Shown here piece by piece: positions 4,427 through 49,802 of a stretch of DNA of 64,000 nucleotides. The position numbers and the translations under genes are program-made. The DNA lies in NCBI GenBank assembly GCA_947479085.1, contig CANJYB010000002.1, positions 62,001 to 126,000 of the forward strand, given 5' to 3'. Numbering within the stretch: position 1 is the first letter of the stretch; every line of letters begins with the position of its first letter. This DNA is from Bacteroidota bacterium. GTDB lineage: Bacteria > Bacteroidota > Bacteroidia > 2-12-FULL-35-15. The notes beneath the pieces were generated by a model, which saw only the letters and a program-made list of their open reading frames with translations, searched no databases and was not told where the DNA came from.

Positions 4427-4690
4427 TTTTCAACTTTGGCTTTTGTAAAAATGCGTCATATGGGTCAATATCAAAATTGAAATCGTATCACTTTGCGTCA
4501 TATGGGTCAATACCAAAATTGAAATCGTATCATATTGCGTCATATTGGTCAATATCAAAATTGAAATCGTATCATATTGCGTCATGCTGTCAATTTCAAA
4601 ATTGAAACTTTACCAAAGTGTGCCATTTTGTCAATATCAAAATGGATATTGACTTAAATGATGCACTTTCACAAAAGTCAAAGTTGAAAA
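4427..4690. repeat. Inverted-repeat-bounded element with a 42-bp tandem array
   Basis: The 33-nt ends 4427-4459 and 4658-4690 are inverted repeats with about 4 mismatches. Between them lie 42-bp tandem units starting at 4453, 4495, 4537 and 4579 (the fourth degenerate), then a 9-bp-stem hairpin GTCAATATC...GATATTGAC (4630-4653). No ORF of gene size is present. The shape resembles a MITE or a non-coding hairpin element, but no transposase or target duplication is visible. Confidence 0.75.
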
Positions 4691-4890: not shown

Positions 4891-7800
4891 ATGAGTAAAA
4901 CATATAAAACATATACGGCTCTTAATCTTTCGCAAACTGCAAAGGATGTGCAAAAGACGTGGGACGAGAACAATACTTTTGAAAAATCCATTACTTCGCG
5001 TGAAGGAAAGGCACCTTTTGTTTTTTATGAAGGTCCTCCAAGTGCCAATGGACTGCCGGGTATTCACCACGTGATGGCGCGTTCTATCAAGGATATTTTT
5101 TGTCGTTATAAAACACAAAAAGGTTTCCAGGTAAAGCGTAAAGCCGGTTGGGATACGCATGGGTTGCCAATAGAATTAAGTGTGGAGAAGGAATTGGGCA
5201 TTACGAAAGAAGATATTGGGAAGAAAATAACTGTTGAAGAATACAATGTGGCCTGCCGTAAAGATGTAATGAAATACACGGATGTATGGGCAGATGTAAC
5301 AGCAAAGATGGGTTATTGGGTGGATATGGAGCATCCGTATATTACTTATGATAACCGCTATATTGAATCGGTTTGGTGGCTGTTGAATAATTTATATAAT
5401 AAAGGTGCCATCTATAAAGGATTTACTATTCAGCCTTATTCGCCTGCTGCGGGTACGGGACTTTCTACGCATGAATTAAATCAGCCGGGATGTTATAGGG
5501 ATGTGAAGGATAGGACGGCTGTGGCGATGTTTAAAGTTTCTAAAGAACAGGATTCAAACCTTCAAGGTTTTAAAAACCTTGAAGGTTTAGAAGGCGATGT
5601 TTATTTCCTTGCGTGGACAACAACTCCTTGGACATTGCCTTCTAATACTGCTTTGGCGGTTGGAAAGAATATAGATTATGTTTTAGTGGAAACATTTAAT
5701 CAGTTTACTCAGGAAAGAATATTTGTTATTCTTGCCAAGGAATTAATGAAAAAATATTTTACAGGGGAAGGCACAACAGTTACTGCTTTTGGAAAAGCTG
5801 ATGGAAAATTAGTTCCTCCTGACCCTAAACACCCATACCATCATTGGCAACTAATATCCGAATTCAAAGGTTCCGATTTAGCTGGGATAAAATACGAACA
5901 ACTACTTCCTTTTGCTCAACCAACTGATGGTGATGCATTCAAAGTAATCATCGGAGATTTTGTAACTACAGAAGATGGTACAGGTATCGTTCACATTGCT
6001 CCAAGTTTTGGTGCAGACGATTTTCGTGTTGCTAAACAAAACGGAATTGGCTCGTTAACATTGGTAGACAAACGTGGTAAGTTTTTGCAGGAAGTAAAAG
6101 ACGATGTGTTTTTGTATGGTGAAGAATATGTGAAGGAAGCTTATTTGACTGATGAAGAAAAGGAAACAGAGTTTCAACATCAAAAGAAAATACTGGAAGC
6201 AAAGGGAAAAATAAAGGAGTTGAAATCTTACCTGAGTGTGGATGAACGCATTGTTCTGAAACTACAGGAAGAAGGAAAACTTTTTAAAAAAGAGACTTAC
6301 GAGCATAGCTATCCGCATTGCTGGCGCACAGATAAACCAGTTTTATATTATCCGTTAGATTCATGGTTTATTAAAACTACTGATTATAAAGATAGAATGA
6401 TTGAGTTGAACAAAACTATTAACTGGAAACCTGAATCGACAGGTACCGGGCGTTTTGGCAACTGGCTGGAGAACCTGAACGATTGGAACTTATCGCGTTC
6501 GCGCTTTTGGGGAATTCCTATTCCTATCTGGACAAGTGAAGACAAGAGTGAACAAATTTGTATTGGTTCTGCAGAGGAATTAAAAAAGGAAATTGAAAAT
6601 GCAGTTGCAAAAGGAGCAATGCAAAACAACCCGCTTGACTCATTTAAAGTCGGTGATAACAGTGCGGAGAACTACAATACATTTGATTTGCATAAACCTT
6701 ATGCGGATAATATTGTGCTGGAACGTAATGGGAAAAAGCTTTTCCGCGAACCTGATTTGATTGATGTTTGGTTCGATTCGGGCGCTATGCCTTATGCACA
6801 GCTTCATTACCCTTTTGAGAACAAGGAGTTAATTGACAATAAAAAATATTTCCCTGCTGATTTTATTGCAGAAGGAGTTGACCAGACAAGAGGTTGGTTC
6901 TTTACATTGCACGCTATTGGAACGATGTGTTTTGATTCCGTTGCTTTTAAAAATGTAGTGAGTAACGGTTTGGTGCTGGATAAAAACGGGCAGAAAATGA
7001 GCAAGCGATTGGGTAATGCTGTCAATCCGTTTGAAACCATTGAGAAATACGGACCGGATGCTACGCGCTGGTATATGATTACCAATGCAGCTCCCTGGGA
7101 TAATTTGAAATTTGACTTAGAGGGAATCACGGAAGTACAACGTAAGTTTTTCGGAACGTTGCATAATACCTATTCGTTCTTTGCGTTGTATGCTAATGTG
7201 GATGGGTTCAGTTATTCAGAGGCAGAGATACCGATGAGTGAACGGGCTGAAATTGACCGTTGGATAATTTCGGAATTGAATACATTGATTAAAAAAGTGG
7301 ATGAAGCGTACAGTGATTACGAACCACATCGTGCAGGAAGATATATTGAATCTTTTGTGGATGAACATTTGAGTAACTGGTACGTTCGCCTCTGCAGAAG
7401 ACGTTTCTGGAAAGGAGATTATTCGCAGGATAAGATAGCAGCCTACCAAACCTTATATACTTGCCTGGAAACAATAGCAAAGCTTTCAGCACCGATTGCT
7501 CCTTTCTTTATGGATAGATTATTTACTGATTTGAACGCGGTAACCAATCGCGACAAGTTTGAATCCATTCATTTGAGCGAGTTTCCGGTAAGTGATGAAA
7601 AAGTAATTGATAAGAATTTGGAAGAAAGAATGGAGTTGGCGCAAAAGATTTCTTCCATGGTTTTATCTATCCGAAAAAAAGAAAATATTCGTGTTCGTCA
7701 ACCGTTGAACAGAATCCAGATCCCGGTATTGGATGATTCGTACAAAGCGAAAATAGAAGCGGTAAAGGATTTGATTCTTTCGGAAGTAAATGTAAAGACC

Positions 7801-8367
7801 CTTGATTTGGTGGATGAATCGCATACCCAAATAGTAAAGAATTTGAAACTGAATTTCAAAACGCTTGGGAAGAAATGCGGGAAGAATATGAAAGCGGTTC
7901 AGACTTTTGCGAATGAAAATGCACAGGTTATTATTTCAGGAATTGAGAAGGCAGGAACCTACGAAATGAAGTTGGGCGAGGATACTATTGTGCTGGAAAC
8001 GGAAGATGTGGAAATTATCCCGGTAGATATTCCGGGATGGAAGGTTTCCAATTCCGGGCAGTTAACGGTGGCTTTGGATATTACTATTACCCCTGAACTG
8101 AGGGAGGAAGGCCTGGCCAGGGAACTGGTAAATCGTATTCAGAACCTTAGAAAAGATAGTAATCTGGACGTTACAGATAAGATAGAAGTGCGAATTCAAA
8201 GAAATTCTGCATTAAATTCCGCCATAAATAATAATTTGAAGTATATTTGCGCGGAAATTTTGGCATCTTCTCTGGAAATTGTCGATAATCTTGCTGCTGG
8301 TAGCAGCACTGATATTGAACTGGATGAAGAAATCAGGACATTAATTACTATTCATAAACTTAATTAA
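4891..8367 (+). CDS. ileS: Isoleucyl-tRNA synthetase
   Basis: The 1158-aa cytoplasmic class I synthetase charges tRNA-Ile. The HIGH motif is GIHH (in NGLPGIHHVMAR, about residues 57-60) and the KMSKR loop is complete (about 698-702). The editing-domain core WTTTPWTLPSNTAL is present near residue 250. Length and the KDIFCRYKTQKGF start region fit the long type-2 IleRS usual in Bacteroidota. Just before the editing core the reading frame carries an 11-residue stretch, SNLQGFKNLEG, encoded by a 33-nt near-perfect palindrome (5556-5588) that looks inserted. It is the first gene of the ileS / dksA-like / lspA string, with 10 nt to the next gene. Confidence 0.98.
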   Translation: MSKTYKTYTALNLSQTAKDVQKTWDENNTFEKSITSREGKAPFVFYEGPPSANGLPGIHHVMARSIKDIFCRYKTQKGFQVKRKAGWDTHGLPIELSVEKELGITKEDIGKKITVEEYNVACRKDVMKYTDVWADVTAKMGYWVDMEHPYITYDNRYIESVWWLLNNLYNKGAIYKGFTIQPYSPAAGTGLSTHELNQPGCYRDVKDRTAVAMFKVSKEQDSNLQGFKNLEGLEGDVYFLAWTTTPWTLPSNTALAVGKNIDYVLVETFNQFTQERIFVILAKELMKKYFTGEGTTVTAFGKADGKLVPPDPKHPYHHWQLISEFKGSDLAGIKYEQLLPFAQPTDGDAFKVIIGDFVTTEDGTGIVHIAPSFGADDFRVAKQNGIGSLTLVDKRGKFLQEVKDDVFLYGEEYVKEAYLTDEEKETEFQHQKKILEAKGKIKELKSYLSVDERIVLKLQEEGKLFKKETYEHSYPHCWRTDKPVLYYPLDSWFIKTTDYKDRMIELNKTINWKPESTGTGRFGNWLENLNDWNLSRSRFWGIPIPIWTSEDKSEQICIGSAEELKKEIENAVAKGAMQNNPLDSFKVGDNSAENYNTFDLHKPYADNIVLERNGKKLFREPDLIDVWFDSGAMPYAQLHYPFENKELIDNKKYFPADFIAEGVDQTRGWFFTLHAIGTMCFDSVAFKNVVSNGLVLDKNGQKMSKRLGNAVNPFETIEKYGPDATRWYMITNAAPWDNLKFDLEGITEVQRKFFGTLHNTYSFFALYANVDGFSYSEAEIPMSERAEIDRWIISELNTLIKKVDEAYSDYEPHRAGRYIESFVDEHLSNWYVRLCRRRFWKGDYSQDKIAAYQTLYTCLETIAKLSAPIAPFFMDRLFTDLNAVTNRDKFESIHLSEFPVSDEKVIDKNLEERMELAQKISSMVLSIRKKENIRVRQPLNRIQIPVLDDSYKAKIEAVKDLILSEVNVKTLDLVDESHTQIVKNLKLNFKTLGKKCGKNMKAVQTFANENAQVIISGIEKAGTYEMKLGEDTIVLETEDVEIIPVDIPGWKVSNSGQLTVALDITITPELREEGLARELVNRIQNLRKDSNLDVTDKIEVRIQRNSALNSAINNNLKYICAEILASSLEIVDNLAAGSSTDIELDEEIRTLITIHKLN
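5556..5588. repeat. 33-bp palindromic repeat inside ileS
   Basis: The left arm 5556-5571 (AAACCTTCAAGGTTTT) and the right arm 5573-5588 are perfect 16-nt reverse complements around one A. The element is in frame and adds residues to IleRS. Its plan (ACCyT...ArGGTT, nAA loop, mirror) is shared with the intergenic palindromes at 9466-9500 and 15026-15060. Confidence 0.93.
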
Positions 8368-15746: not shown

Positions 15747-15914
15747 GTGTTTTTAGGGTTGAGTATTTAATTTATGAACTTAATAATATGTGTTAAGATA
15801 TTCTTTAAATGAAAACCAACAGAATTCGAATAATATTGCATCGCGTTCCCTTGTTATGCAATGTTGTAGGGATGAGTTTCAATAATATTTGAATTTTTTT
15901 ACATCTTACCCCGT

Positions 15915-16104
15915 TGATATTGAATCTTACTCCGATGAGATTCAATATCACTCCAATGATATTAACATCCTATTCCTTTGATATTAAATCATGTTCCCTT
16001 AAGATGGTATCTTGTTCACATGACATTTCATCTCATCGGAATGCTTTTCAAAACCATCGGGATGATCCACAATAATATTCGAATTATTTGACATATAATT
16101 CGAA
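15915..16104. repeat. Nine degenerate 21-bp tandem units upstream of the 218-aa gene
   Basis: Units start at 15915, 15936, 15957, 15979, 16000, 16021, 16042, 16063 and 16084: each is 21 nt, with one extra base before the fourth. The loose pattern is TGAtATTnAATC... ending in TCCGA, TCGGA or TCGAA. GATATTGAATCT (15916-15927) and AGATTCAATATC (15938-15949) form a 12-bp inverted repeat. The rest of the 572-nt gap (15747-16318) shows only AT-rich sequence and a promoter-like box at its right end. Confidence 0.8.
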
Positions 16105-25518: not shown

Positions 25519-25770
25519 TAAAGCCTTTTTATTACAAACAAAGACCTTTTCCTTTGAAACAAAGACCTTTCTTTCATACCGAGAGACCTTTTCCTTAGAA
25601 ACAAAGACCTTTCTTTCATACCGAGAGACCTTTTTATTACAAACAAAGACCTTTCTTTCATACCGAAAGACCTTTTCCTTTGAAACAAAGGCCTTTCTTT
25701 CATACCGAAAGACCTTTTTGTTATAAACAAAGACCTTTCTTTTATACCGAAAGACCTTTTTATCACAAAC
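25519..25770. repeat. Twelve contiguous 21-bp repeats (alternating A/B, 42-bp higher order)
   Basis: Units start every 21 nt from 25519 to 25750 without any indel. Odd/even units alternate: AAAGACCTTTCTTTCATACCG-type and a second type ending in GAAAC, CAAAC or TAAAC. There are no unique spacers, so this is not CRISPR. Because 21 is divisible by 3, a 148-codon frame stays open on the minus strand with 14-residue repeats; I regard it as a by-product. Confidence 0.93.
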
Positions 25771-25796
25771 AAAACGTTTTGTTTGTGATAAAAAGG
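25755..25796. repeat. Perfect 42-bp palindrome at the end of the 21-bp array
   Basis: 25755-25775 (CCTTTTTATCACAAACAAAAC...) and 25776-25796 are exact reverse complements with no loop. The right arm is an inverted copy of the last array unit, so the repeat changes orientation here. The gap continues to 25953 with no other signal. Confidence 0.95.
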
Positions 25797-25953
25797 CAAA
25801 ACGAAGGTTTTTGAATGTTTATGCATGTTTGCGATGCACAAACGGAGATTTAAAACCAATTCAAGGAACTTTTCGGAACAAAAATAAATGAAATGAAAGA
25901 GCAGCTACTTTATTTTGATTATTCGTGAAACGTAATGATTATTCGTGAAAATA

Positions 25954-46791: not shown

Positions 46792-47727
46792 TTAAACCCC
46801 CACCATATTAAAAGTATGATTATACACAAACACACCATCTACATAAGTGAGCACAAATTCCTGGGCTATATATCCCGGAGCTTCCACCTCAATGGTTATT
46901 TCATCGGCCACAGTGGTGGTTAATGTGGCGTTTCCGGCTGCATCGGTTAGCTGTGAGTTTTCACTTTCCACTATGCTAACTGTGGCACCCTCTATGGCTG
47001 CACGTGTATCAGCATTTAATACCGTTACATTAATAGTGTACGATTGGCTGGATACAAATATTTCTCCCCACAGGCGGCATTTTCTGCGTTGAGAAGGAGC
47101 ATCATCTTCATCATAAAATGTTTCTATCTCATCCCATATTTTTTTAATCAGCTTATCCACATCTTCGCGCGAATTTTCCACATCTTCCTGAGTTGTATCG
47201 TAAGCCGATTTTTTAATAGCGTGAGAATTATTGGTGAGTACAAAAGCATCCACCACTGCGTTTACCTGAGCCGTGGTAGGGTTGCTCATGGCAGCACCTC
47301 CGGCAGCCAGGCGGGCTATATCGCCATTTTTAATGTTAGCGCCCCAGTCTCTTATATCGGCTTCCGAAGCTAATGAGGGCACCGCATTGGCCGATAGGTC
47401 GAGCGAATAATAACTTTTGGCACTCGAAGGATATACCCCCCTTTCCACTCCCAGGAAAAACACCTGAAAAAAATGACTGATGAACATCCTGGCCAGCTCC
47501 TTGGCTACCTCGTTTAAGGAGGTGCTGCTTCCCTGGGTGGCCAATGCCACCGCCCGGGCCAGCAGCAAGGCCGGAAAAGAAAGGTTCGTAGCTGTTACCC
47601 TTGCCTGTGTGGCGGGTGTTAGGGCCATATCGGCCGGTGCTACCCGGCCCATTTGTGCATCTGCGGCATTTAATGCGCGCTTTCTGCCAGTGTCTGTTTT
47701 AGGCAATCGCCTGCTTATAACTACCAT
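46792..47727 (-). CDS. Hypothetical protein (311 aa) with C-terminal carboxypeptidase-regulatory-like domain
   Basis: Residues 1 to about 215 are of a type I do not recognise (MVVISRRLPKTDTGRK..., then SHFFQVFFLGVERG and an acidic EDVENSREDVDKLIKKIWDEIETFYDEDDAP segment). Residues about 225-311 form a Greek-key sandwich of the carboxypeptidase-regulatory type (SYTINVTVLNADTRAAIEGATVSIV...DAAGNATLTT). There is no signal peptide. A 42-bp repeat array lies about 210 nt upstream, with a LytTR response-regulator gene beyond it on the same strand, matching the layout at 24.7-26.5 kb. A hairpin (46735-46745 with 46774-46784) is just downstream. Confidence 0.7.
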   Translation of the reverse strand: MVVISRRLPKTDTGRKRALNAADAQMGRVAPADMALTPATQARVTATNLSFPALLLARAVALATQGSSTSLNEVAKELARMFISHFFQVFFLGVERGVYPSSAKSYYSLDLSANAVPSLASEADIRDWGANIKNGDIARLAAGGAAMSNPTTAQVNAVVDAFVLTNNSHAIKKSAYDTTQEDVENSREDVDKLIKKIWDEIETFYDEDDAPSQRRKCRLWGEIFVSSQSYTINVTVLNADTRAAIEGATVSIVESENSQLTDAAGNATLTTTVADEITIEVEAPGYIAQEFVLTYVDGVFVYNHTFNMVGV

Positions 47728-47939
47728 ATCTTTATATTTTTTTTGTTTAATTTTTTGTTTTATGCCGGTTTGTTTTCTTTATTTCCGGCTATTGTTATTT
47801 TTATTTATTTTTGTTAAAGTGACTTTTTGGCATACCAGGGTATGCAGACAGACGGGTGGAGGTTTGCTGTATAAAATATTGTAAATCAATGTAAATAGAA
47901 TTATTTCGGAATGCCCAACGGAATAAAAGCAAATGAGAG

Positions 47940-48330
47940 GGGGGCAAATTGAACCTAATCCGGGTCTCTCCAACATGGGAGGGGGGCAGATTGAACCTAA
48001 TCCGGGTCCCTCCAACATTGGAGGGGGGCAGATTGAACCTAATCCAGGTACCTCCAACGTGGGAGGGGGGCAAATTGAACCTAATCCGGGTCCCTCCAAC
48101 ATGGGAGGGGGGCAGATTGAATCTAATCCGGGTCCCTCCAACATGGGAGAGGGGCAGATTGAATCTAATTTGTGGTCCATCCGTTTTACTAAACCCTGTA
48201 TTAAAGTCAATTTGGCATCCTTCCGGTTTTGTAAACCTTCAATTGAAACCAATTTTGCCTCCTCTCGGTTTTTGGAACCAAGGATTATTTTCCATATCCA
48301 GTTTACTAATGTGAGGAACCCTTTCATTTT
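47940..48330. repeat. 42-bp tandem array (six near-perfect units plus degenerate ones)
   Basis: ATTGAACCTAATCCGGGTCC marks successive units at 47948, 47990, 48032, 48074, 48116 and 48158, each exactly 42 bp apart; degenerate 42-bp units continue to about 48330. Each unit splits into two 21-bp halves. It is contiguous, with no unique spacers. Because 42 is a multiple of 3, several frames on both strands stay open across it, one (47779-48327, minus) with 14-residue repeats; I count these as by-products. The rest of 47728-48514 shows no other gene. Confidence 0.92.
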
Positions 48331-48514
48331 TTATCCTTTTTGTTTTTTAAAAATGAATTACCTTTTTAGGGAAATCAATTTTTAATTACGGCTGCTGATG
48401 ATTAATTTCTTTTCAGCGACCAAAGGAAGTAAAAACAATAAGTTGAAAATGGCAGGCTGGTGAAAGGGGTAATATTCTTTGCGAAAAGGGTAGTTTTCTT
48501 TGCGAAATCTTTTT

Positions 48515-49267
48515 TTAGTAGATAAGATTATCCCAAACGTTAATTAATTCCTGCCATAATTCCTCCTTACCTGCAAATATTGGTTTGGTATAAGGAGCCT
48601 TGAGGTAAATAATTCCCTCAGCTCTTTTTAACCTTTCTATATATAATATATTGACCAAAAAACTTTTCTGAACTCTGTAAATACCACAGCCATAAACTTC
48701 TTCCTCGCAAACCTTTAATGTTTTTGAAACTAAAAAATTACTGCCATCAGCAAAATTAAAACGTACCTGCGAATTAGCGGATTCCATATATGCCAGCGTA
48801 TTCAGAATGATTTTTTTTTCACCATGTTCATTATTCTTCAGTGTAAGTAGCCGATTTTGCTGAAGAGTAAGATTTGCAATAGAGTACTTTTTTCTTAAAG
48901 CAGTTTCTATCAATGGCACTATCCGTTTGATTGTCTGGACAGCATCCACAGGTTTTTGCAAAAATTCATGCTTATGATTTATCAGTTTATTGTTTATTTT
49001 CTGATTCTCCGGAGTGGTTACAAATACCACCTCAAACCCTTTTTCAGTCTTTGTTTTGGCAAACTTAAAACCATCTCCTCCGCATTGCAGCGGGTCTATA
49101 AAAATAATGTCGGGCTGCAAAGTGTTAATTACAGGGCGTGCCAGGTCAATGTGTTCGAAACAGCCTGTAACTGTTAAACCAAAAAGTTCTTGCTTTAGCA
49201 GCAAACAGAGATGTTCTCTGTGGTTATTATTGCTGTCAATAATAATGGCGGTTAAATTTTTTTTCAT
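48515..49267 (-). CDS. LytTR-family response regulator
   Basis: The 250-aa regulator has a receiver domain (residues 1-120; D58 in IIFIDPLQ is the likely phospho-acceptor and K105 in FLQKPV the conserved Lys, but the acidic pair is reduced to D11) and a LytTR DNA-binding domain (about 150-245; LAYMESANSQVRFNFADGS, SKTLKVCEEEV, IYRVQKSFLVNILYIERL). Such proteins bind pairs of direct repeats about 21 bp apart. Its cognate kinase is not next to it. The 42-bp array and a hypothetical gene lie downstream on the same strand, and co-varying palindromes lie upstream. Confidence 0.88.
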   Translation of the reverse strand: MKKNLTAIIIDSNNNHREHLCLLLKQELFGLTVTGCFEHIDLARPVINTLQPDIIFIDPLQCGGDGFKFAKTKTEKGFEVVFVTTPENQKINNKLINHKHEFLQKPVDAVQTIKRIVPLIETALRKKYSIANLTLQQNRLLTLKNNEHGEKKIILNTLAYMESANSQVRFNFADGSNFLVSKTLKVCEEEVYGCGIYRVQKSFLVNILYIERLKRAEGIIYLKAPYTKPIFAGKEELWQELINVWDNLIY

Positions 49268-49364: not shown

Positions 49365-49660
49365 TGCACCTCTTGTTTAACGTTTCAAAATTAGCTACTG
49401 CCTGTAGGTTCTGCCAAATCGAAATTCAGTAGATTTTGTACTGAAATTCAGTATTTTTTCTTCTACTGAAATTCAGTACACCCTAATGAAATTCAGTAGA
49501 AATTTTACCTGTTTTATCTTTTTAAGCCTTCTGTAAATGATGCACCAACACCACTTATTTAACGTTTCAAAATTAGCTACTGCCTGTACCAACTGCCAAA
49601 TCGAAATTCGGTATTTTCTCTACCGAAATTCGGTATTTTTTTCTCTACCGAATTTCGGTA
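49365..49660. repeat. Two diverged blocks of palindromes with a duplicated leader
   Basis: A segment ACGTTTCAAAATTAGCTACT...CTGCCAAATCGAAATTC occurs at about 49380-49427 and again at 49562-49610. After it, block 1 has TACTGAAATTCAGTA at 49439-49453 and 49464-49478 and a variant at 49484-49498; block 2 has TACCGAAATTCGGTA at 49621-49635 and a centre-flipped copy at 49646-49660. The T/A to C/G changes occur in both arms together. No coding frame is seen in the 535-nt gap 49268-49802. Confidence 0.85.
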
Positions 49661-49802
49661 GGGTTTTATCAGGCGAAAATTAAATTTACCAATAAGTAAA
49701 TAATGTAACTTTTGCTTTGCGTTTTGAAATACCATGCTTAAAAATAACAGGGACCTTTGTGCGGTGAAAATTTATTCACCATTAAAACAAATAAAAAATT
49801 AA

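Follow-up and report, generated by a model that had tools for sequence, protein, structure and literature searches.

The stretch at 46792–49267 of the window, a 64,000-nucleotide section of contig CANJYB010000002.1 from a Bacteroidota bacterium, carries on its minus strand a LytTR regulator gene, a 42-bp tandem array and a gene for a 311-residue hypothetical protein, and raises the question of which of its two neighbors the array belongs with. The original prediction, in which the regulator binds the array, located these three parts correctly, and rightly noted that they share strand and order with a second locus of the window (cassette A, the present locus being cassette B). The hypothetical gene lies 206 bp past the array, where about 210 nt had been noted, and the two GTT-containing 9-mers described for each 42-bp unit are present, 22/20 bp apart. 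The supposed exact 42-bp units at 47940–48330 do have the period of 42 bp, but the copies are near-identical rather than exact, and the stretch is part regular and part degenerate: TRF finds period 42 in both, with 5.6 copies, 92% matches and no indels at 47933–48169, and 2.3 copies with 74% matches at 48176–48272, copy numbers that may be wrong in a host genome known as a 4.28-Mb draft of 50 contigs. Gene content such as Por_Secre_tail also marks this genome as that of a Bacteroidota bacterium. Recurrence of the order regulator, 21n-bp array, hypothetical gene extends far past these two cassettes. The accompanying claim that the layout and not the protein recurs stands insofar as the A and B proteins belong to different families, but each family is paralogous, and both are predicted to join a helix bundle to a β-sandwich. 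These two uncatalogued families are referred to below as F1 (about 220 aa, cassette A) and F2 (about 310 aa, cassette B).

Table 1. Features of cassettes B and A and of a further array locus in the window.
Feature	Position	Strand	Remarks
Cassette B: LytTR regulator, 250 aa	48515..49267	-	PF04397; receiver match below cut-off; no adjoining histidine kinase gene
Cassette B: probable LytTR operator, 14-mers TTTCGCAAAGAAAA / TTTCGCAAAGAATA	48473..48507	-	21 bp apart; 7 bp past LytTR stop
Cassette B: candidate -7 promoter box TTCCTTTG	48421..48428	-	1 mismatch to TAnnTTTG; position fits exact boxes elsewhere
Cassette B: degenerate array part	48176..48330	-	period 42; gap-free conservation in C5 copy
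Cassette B: regular array part	47933..48169	-	5.6 units of 42 bp, 92%
Cassette B: 542-bp segment, array with flanks	47821..48362	-	86% identical gap-free copy at C5, about 95894-96435
Cassette B: short dyad GCATACCAGGGTATGC, between array and F2 gene	47830..47845	.	C5 copy retains dyad as CATACCCGGGTATG; read off alignment
Cassette B: F2 protein, 311 aa	46792..47727	-	predicted long four-helix bundle and C-terminal transthyretin-like (CarboxypepD_reg) sandwich
Cassette A: divergent LytTR regulator, 196 aa	25954..26544	-	PF04397 19.9 bits, under cut-off 22.6
Cassette A: probable operator, two identical TTCACGAATAATCA-like 14-mers	25917..25950	-	20 bp apart, just past LytTR stop
Cassette A: -7 box TATTTTTG	25879..25886	-	
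Cassette A: 42-bp array with 21-bp substructure	25540..25773	-	
Cassette A: F1 protein, 225 aa	24705..25382	-	predicted four-helix bundle and FN3-like sandwich
Third array, 21 bp, 4.3 copies	15899..15990	-	upstream of F1 gene; no regulator gene adjacent
F1 protein, 218 aa	15090..15746	-	downstream of 15899..15990 array

The array belongs with the F gene downstream of it, not with LytTR. In the host genome, which holds five F2 genes (that of cassette B and four paralogues) and 18 F1 genes by our own tally of matches, a 21n-bp array lies within 620 bp upstream of 18 of 23 F1/F2 genes compared with 26 of the 534 genes in random stretches, four of them themselves F-type (p=9e-18). The F-gene classes were formed during the analysis, background rates derive from forty 20-kb stretches (800 kb) picked regardless of LytTR, gene calls follow a simple ORF rule, and TRF overlooks very diverged arrays. 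Most F genes in congeners are likewise preceded by arrays, as are most full-length F2 genes of other Bacteroidota, of an Ignavibacteria MAG and of Draconibacterium orientale. All four F genes of G299, a genome of another class, have arrays (one F2 gene, the other three F1-like), and the closest ORFs in the 1.5 kb examined upstream include no LytTR gene. The F2 gene of D. orientale has its array while 320 kb sampled from that genome hold no non-coding 21n array, so that the link between array and F gene is local. Periods of 21n predominate among the non-coding arrays of the 800 kb (39, versus 17 of other periods). Array density in random stretches reaches 4.0 per 100 kb in the host genome (G000), 2.9 and 3.9 in G004 and G015, two congeners with F genes, and 1.25 in G027, which belongs to another family of the class and has F2 genes; four congeners that yielded no F gene contain no genuine 21-bp array in 354 kb, the one row reported being a 9-bp repeat family. 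Most host-genome arrays (about 4 per 100 kb) do not lie beside F genes, and some lie between convergent genes; these, and copies found elsewhere, mean that arrays may have a broader role.

What, then, does the LytTR protein recognize? The cassette B regulator has a LytTR domain (PF04397, E=3.4e-8; score 34.1 bits, cut-off 22.6) behind an N-terminus that scores 23.3 bits for Response_reg, whose cut-off is 30.2. The count named as a possible refutation of the original prediction did not refute it, as LytTR genes are found within 700 bp of a 21n array more often than random genes (8 of 20 versus 59 of 496, about 12%; Fisher p=0.002). Short or divergent LytTR genes account for this surplus (7 of 9, p=1e-5, in a grouping made post hoc, the short class having been formed during the analysis), there being no surplus among canonical receiver-LytTR genes (1 of 11). 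A separate sequence is the better candidate for the LytTR operator. Eight of the 11 LytTR cassettes scored carry a 14-bp direct repeat with 20–22 bp spacing, 0–9 bp past the LytTR stop codon, all eight at shuffle p<=0.021 and seven at p=0.001, and this feature is specific to them, a direct repeat at p<0.05 occurring in two of 14 non-LytTR cassettes and one of 11 canonical LytTR genes. The two 14-mers match at 13 of 14 positions in cassette B (21 bp apart, p=0.001) and at all 14 in cassette A (p=0.001), with centers at -74 and -58, respectively, from the putative start site. In cassettes with an identified -7 box, the repeat center lies 56–74 bp before the putative start; at one locus, L152, the repeat is farther from the LytTR stop codon. 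In AgrA the corresponding center is about -60, compared with -56 to -74 in the cassettes (PMC4227749). Given its place past the LytTR stop and a center near the AgrA value, this twofold direct repeat is most likely the site on which the LytTR protein acts, a putative AgrA-like operator with the array lying downstream. Like AgrA-type regulators, the cassettes combine a LytTR domain with two direct repeats upstream of a promoter; they differ in having the operator immediately behind the stop codon of the regulator itself and, past the promoter, a long array.

Recurrent promoter boxes place the array downstream of a putative transcription start. The motif TAnnTTTG is the -7 box of sigma-A promoters in flavobacteria (PMC9723704). 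In 44 F loci the region 50–150 bp before the array has 15 sense-strand copies of it and a single antisense copy; inside arrays it is absent from the sense strand, and between array and gene it is found three times. Since boxes and operator recur upstream of the array, the latter would lie in the leader of the F mRNA, with the cassette B start site probably at about 48416. A comparison of cassette A with its orthologous locus in G004 is consistent with this arrangement, as homology between the two starts at about the putative start site: the loci retain the array and the F gene but have different regulators and promoters. Regulators preceding arrays are of several types, LytTR, XRE-, homeodomain- or GerE-like, the non-LytTR types having been assigned by eye from the sequences. 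Together with the arrays of G299 and the separate direct repeat before the promoter, this diversity tells against the part of the original prediction in which LytTR binds the array. Strict pairing of array and regulator was considered and rejected, being contradicted by the A/G004 pair and by loci L007 and L118, which have F2 and a related regulator in common and different arrays. Nor is an array strictly paired with its F sequence, as the close paralogues at C3 and C5 (74% by alignment) have largely different arrays.

The nature of the array is best read from what its copies conserve. Across 73 arrays the units differ at nearly all loci while the period stays at 21n. The 542-bp segment of cassette B and its C5 copy differ by 77 substitutions and no gaps, spread evenly over codon positions (26/26/25), and this evenness, with the stops in the C5 copy, rejects the array as coding sequence despite ORFs of 182 and 150 aa. 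Over six pairs of F loci, 10 indels were counted in 1285 array positions versus 62 in 1169 flank positions, so that indels are about six times rarer in arrays at similar substitution rates. Spacing is thus conserved, and many arrays carry dyads: 19 of 73 contain palindromes at p<0.05, and when compared with column-shuffled copies, a shuffle in which dinucleotides are not preserved, 39 of the 41 F-gene arrays show better folding, on both strands alike. Among double changes in the dyads 35 of 59 are compensatory, above the one third mark, in a count of cells rather than independent events with one locus entered twice. Mismatches of the G-U and of the A-C type number 68 each in the dyads, and therefore give no sign of RNA selection. 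These data fit double-stranded DNA sites of twofold symmetry placed two or four helical turns apart. The dyad of the cassette B array itself is weak (palindrome p=0.47, single-strand fold z=-1.5), so that the reading as dimer sites rests on other arrays. Array sequences are unrelated among F paralogues and distant orthologues, which is hard to reconcile with one conserved sequence-specific reader.

From these sequence comparisons, the array is most likely a row of helically phased DNA sites with a cis effect on F-gene expression. We propose a module, to which we assign an even chance of being correct, in which an orphan regulator gene is followed by its operator directly behind, a sigma-A type promoter, a leader with the 21n-bp array and the F gene, the array acting in cis. 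The LytTR protein would bind the direct repeat at 48473–48507 and control the promoter in the manner of AgrA. Downstream of the start site, array sites spaced by exactly two (or four) turns of the helix would line a protein along one face of the DNA, and this protein might slow or gate the polymerase, by which the array would act on expression of the F gene. As LytTR seems to use a separate, ordinary site, the repeats have the appearance of a hitherto undescribed element that is part of the F gene itself. A wider and more tentative reading, to our minds falling slightly short of even, is that the arrays represent a new class of gene control, in which phased dyad-site arrays in the transcribed leader of F-family genes are read as double-stranded DNA and regulator-operator-promoter modules are exchangeable upstream, LytTR with direct repeats or HTH proteins with other sites. 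If so, many ‘hypothetical’ genes of Bacteroidota would come under a single hidden architecture of control, phased exactly to the helix within a transcribed region, for which we know of no model; the uncatalogued F proteins would gain a defining genetic context, and D. orientale FH5T offers a cultured carrier of array and F2 gene.

Other explanations account for some of these observations. An array located in the putative 5′ leader and able to fold could act as RNA, as a row of leader hairpins controlling translation or termination of the F mRNA. This we consider unlikely, since the sense strand folds no better than its complement (p=0.99) and the dyads tolerate G-U and A-C mismatches equally; a search of the whole window against Rfam returned two tRNAs only and matched no curated leader RNA family, and the array as a structured RNA was rejected for want of strand preference and of an Rfam match. 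Moreover, the A-form RNA helix has about 11 bp per turn and 21 bp make two turns of B-DNA, so that 21 nt have no evident meaning for RNA. The array as a polymeric binding platform for the neighboring LytTR protein draws on the above-chance presence of short LytTR genes near arrays, on a period of 21 bp near the LytTR half-site spacing with two GTT 9-mers per unit, and on RemA of Bacillus, a LytTR-like ring that binds repetitive DNA and is thought to wrap it (PMC8481266). RemA and the cassettes have in common a fold related to LytTR and a regulatory region with repeats, but the RemA sites are 7-bp repeats with 3-bp gaps within the promoter's regulatory region (PMC8481266), whereas the cassettes have 21/42-bp units in the putative leader, and the cassette B array, of period 42/21, shows no such 7-bp repeats. 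Arrays with other regulators or none adjacent, a better and separate LytTR operator upstream of the promoter, the A/G004 pair that shares an array but not a regulator, and the many arrays built of dyads instead of direct half-sites make a LytTR platform decidedly improbable.

The arrays might also be neutral minisatellites, by-products of replication or recombination tolerated between genes and hitch-hiking near F genes, as their wide spread in the host genome and fast, locus-specific divergence would suggest. We regard this as highly unlikely in view of the fixed 21n period, the depletion of indels at ordinary substitution rates, the enrichment, seen in more than one class, ahead of a single gene architecture, and the F-linked array of D. 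orientale with no other non-coding 21n array in its sample. Hardly probable at all is a MITE-like mobile element that bears the array, for which a precedent is BrickBuilt of Porphyromonas gingivalis, likewise an intergenic tandem repeat of a Bacteroidota genome with copies at several loci (PMC4596501). In its favor, the 542-bp segment of cassette B is repeated at C5 before another gene, and host-genome arrays form small similarity groups. BrickBuilt, however, has one common 23-nt unit and a leader and tail with terminal inverted repeats (PMC4596501), whereas the arrays accompany F genes and have 21n-bp units, with a different unit at almost every locus among the 73 arrays. Very few copies like that at C5 exist, and arrays of orthologous F genes keep their place between species.

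Searches of the open-access literature found no description of such arrays with LytTR or in Bacteroidota; the nearest known systems also include two other kinds of repeats. Plasmid iteron and centromere arrays consist of direct repeats about two helical turns apart beside a gene for a DNA-binding protein. The cassette B array resembles them in both respects but is chromosomal, adjoins no replication or partition gene that we could see, and has an F gene downstream. TAACTGA heptamer repeats of Beggiatoaceae, Cyanobacteria and some Bacteroidetes are also intergenic direct repeats upstream of genes, and 7 divides 21 (PMC4679880); they differ in using a single heptamer, mostly no more than several nucleotides from start codons, where the arrays have long, locus-specific units about 100–250 bp before the gene.

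Structural models give a consistent picture of the proteins. AlphaFold2 predicts four helices followed by an FN3-like sandwich for F1 (mean pLDDT 91.7), and four long helices followed by a transthyretin-like sandwich for F2 (mean pLDDT 92.8). The F2 C-terminus matches PF13620 (E=1.7e-7, slightly under the curated cut-off) and the PDB profiles 9gbc (E=2e-6) and 5aq0 (E=1.5e-5), the last also found by fold search. Fold searches with both models matched β-sandwich domains only, the helical part having no clear match there, no Pfam family, and no convincing match in NCBIfam, PHROGs or PADLOC. Among known defense and phage families, F2 has no PADLOC match and one member has a weak match in PHROGs; five F2 members match an anammox S-layer model. 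F1 and F2 are present in a minority of congeners, F1 in 7 to 15 copies or none. Arrays also precede other families, a third of 224 aa at C24 and a fourth of 208–216 aa at C14 and C25. Relatives of F2 with about 229–235 aa in Bacteroidales (e.g. L240, L273) are conserved and have no array and no Pfam family; in the loci read, their neighbors on either side are polyprenyl synthetase and TatD genes. Two loci of the host genome depart from intact F genes. At L062/L066 (G000:C2:132394-133052) an F1 gene is split into two overlapping frames, with an array and a tandemly repeated segment of 158 bp ahead of it, and at L131 (G000:C10:99541-99777) a fragment resembling the F2 N-terminus lies within a longer ORF, the match containing one TGA stop.

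Several further observations concern arrays and intergenic DNA near these loci. The C5 copy of the cassette B segment (L035 4004-4359, G000:C5:96004) lies upstream of a gene for a secreted protein (321 aa), not of an F gene, and a weaker relative of the segment occurs at C4:24055. Within the window, the 42-bp array at 4452–4643, upstream of an isoleucyl-tRNA synthetase-like gene (4891–8367) with no F gene, is one of many outside F cassettes. Clustering by neighbors paired loci L096 (G000:C11) and L110 (G000:C5), where a small regulator-like family of 198 and 192 aa lies beside arrays. Some 550–600 bp before the F1 gene of L133 (G004:C80), a perfect inverted repeat, TTTGTAGACTTTTT...AAAAAGTCTACAAA, stands behind a GerE-like regulator and is perhaps its operator, or a terminator. 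Lastly, a stretch (TTTAACGTTTCAAAATTAGCTACTGCCTGTA...) is duplicated at 49378–49500 and 49558–49667, between the divergent LytTR and β-barrel genes, and behind the duplicates lie two differing palindrome clusters, one TACTGAAATTCAGTA-like and the other TACCGAAATTCGGTA-like.
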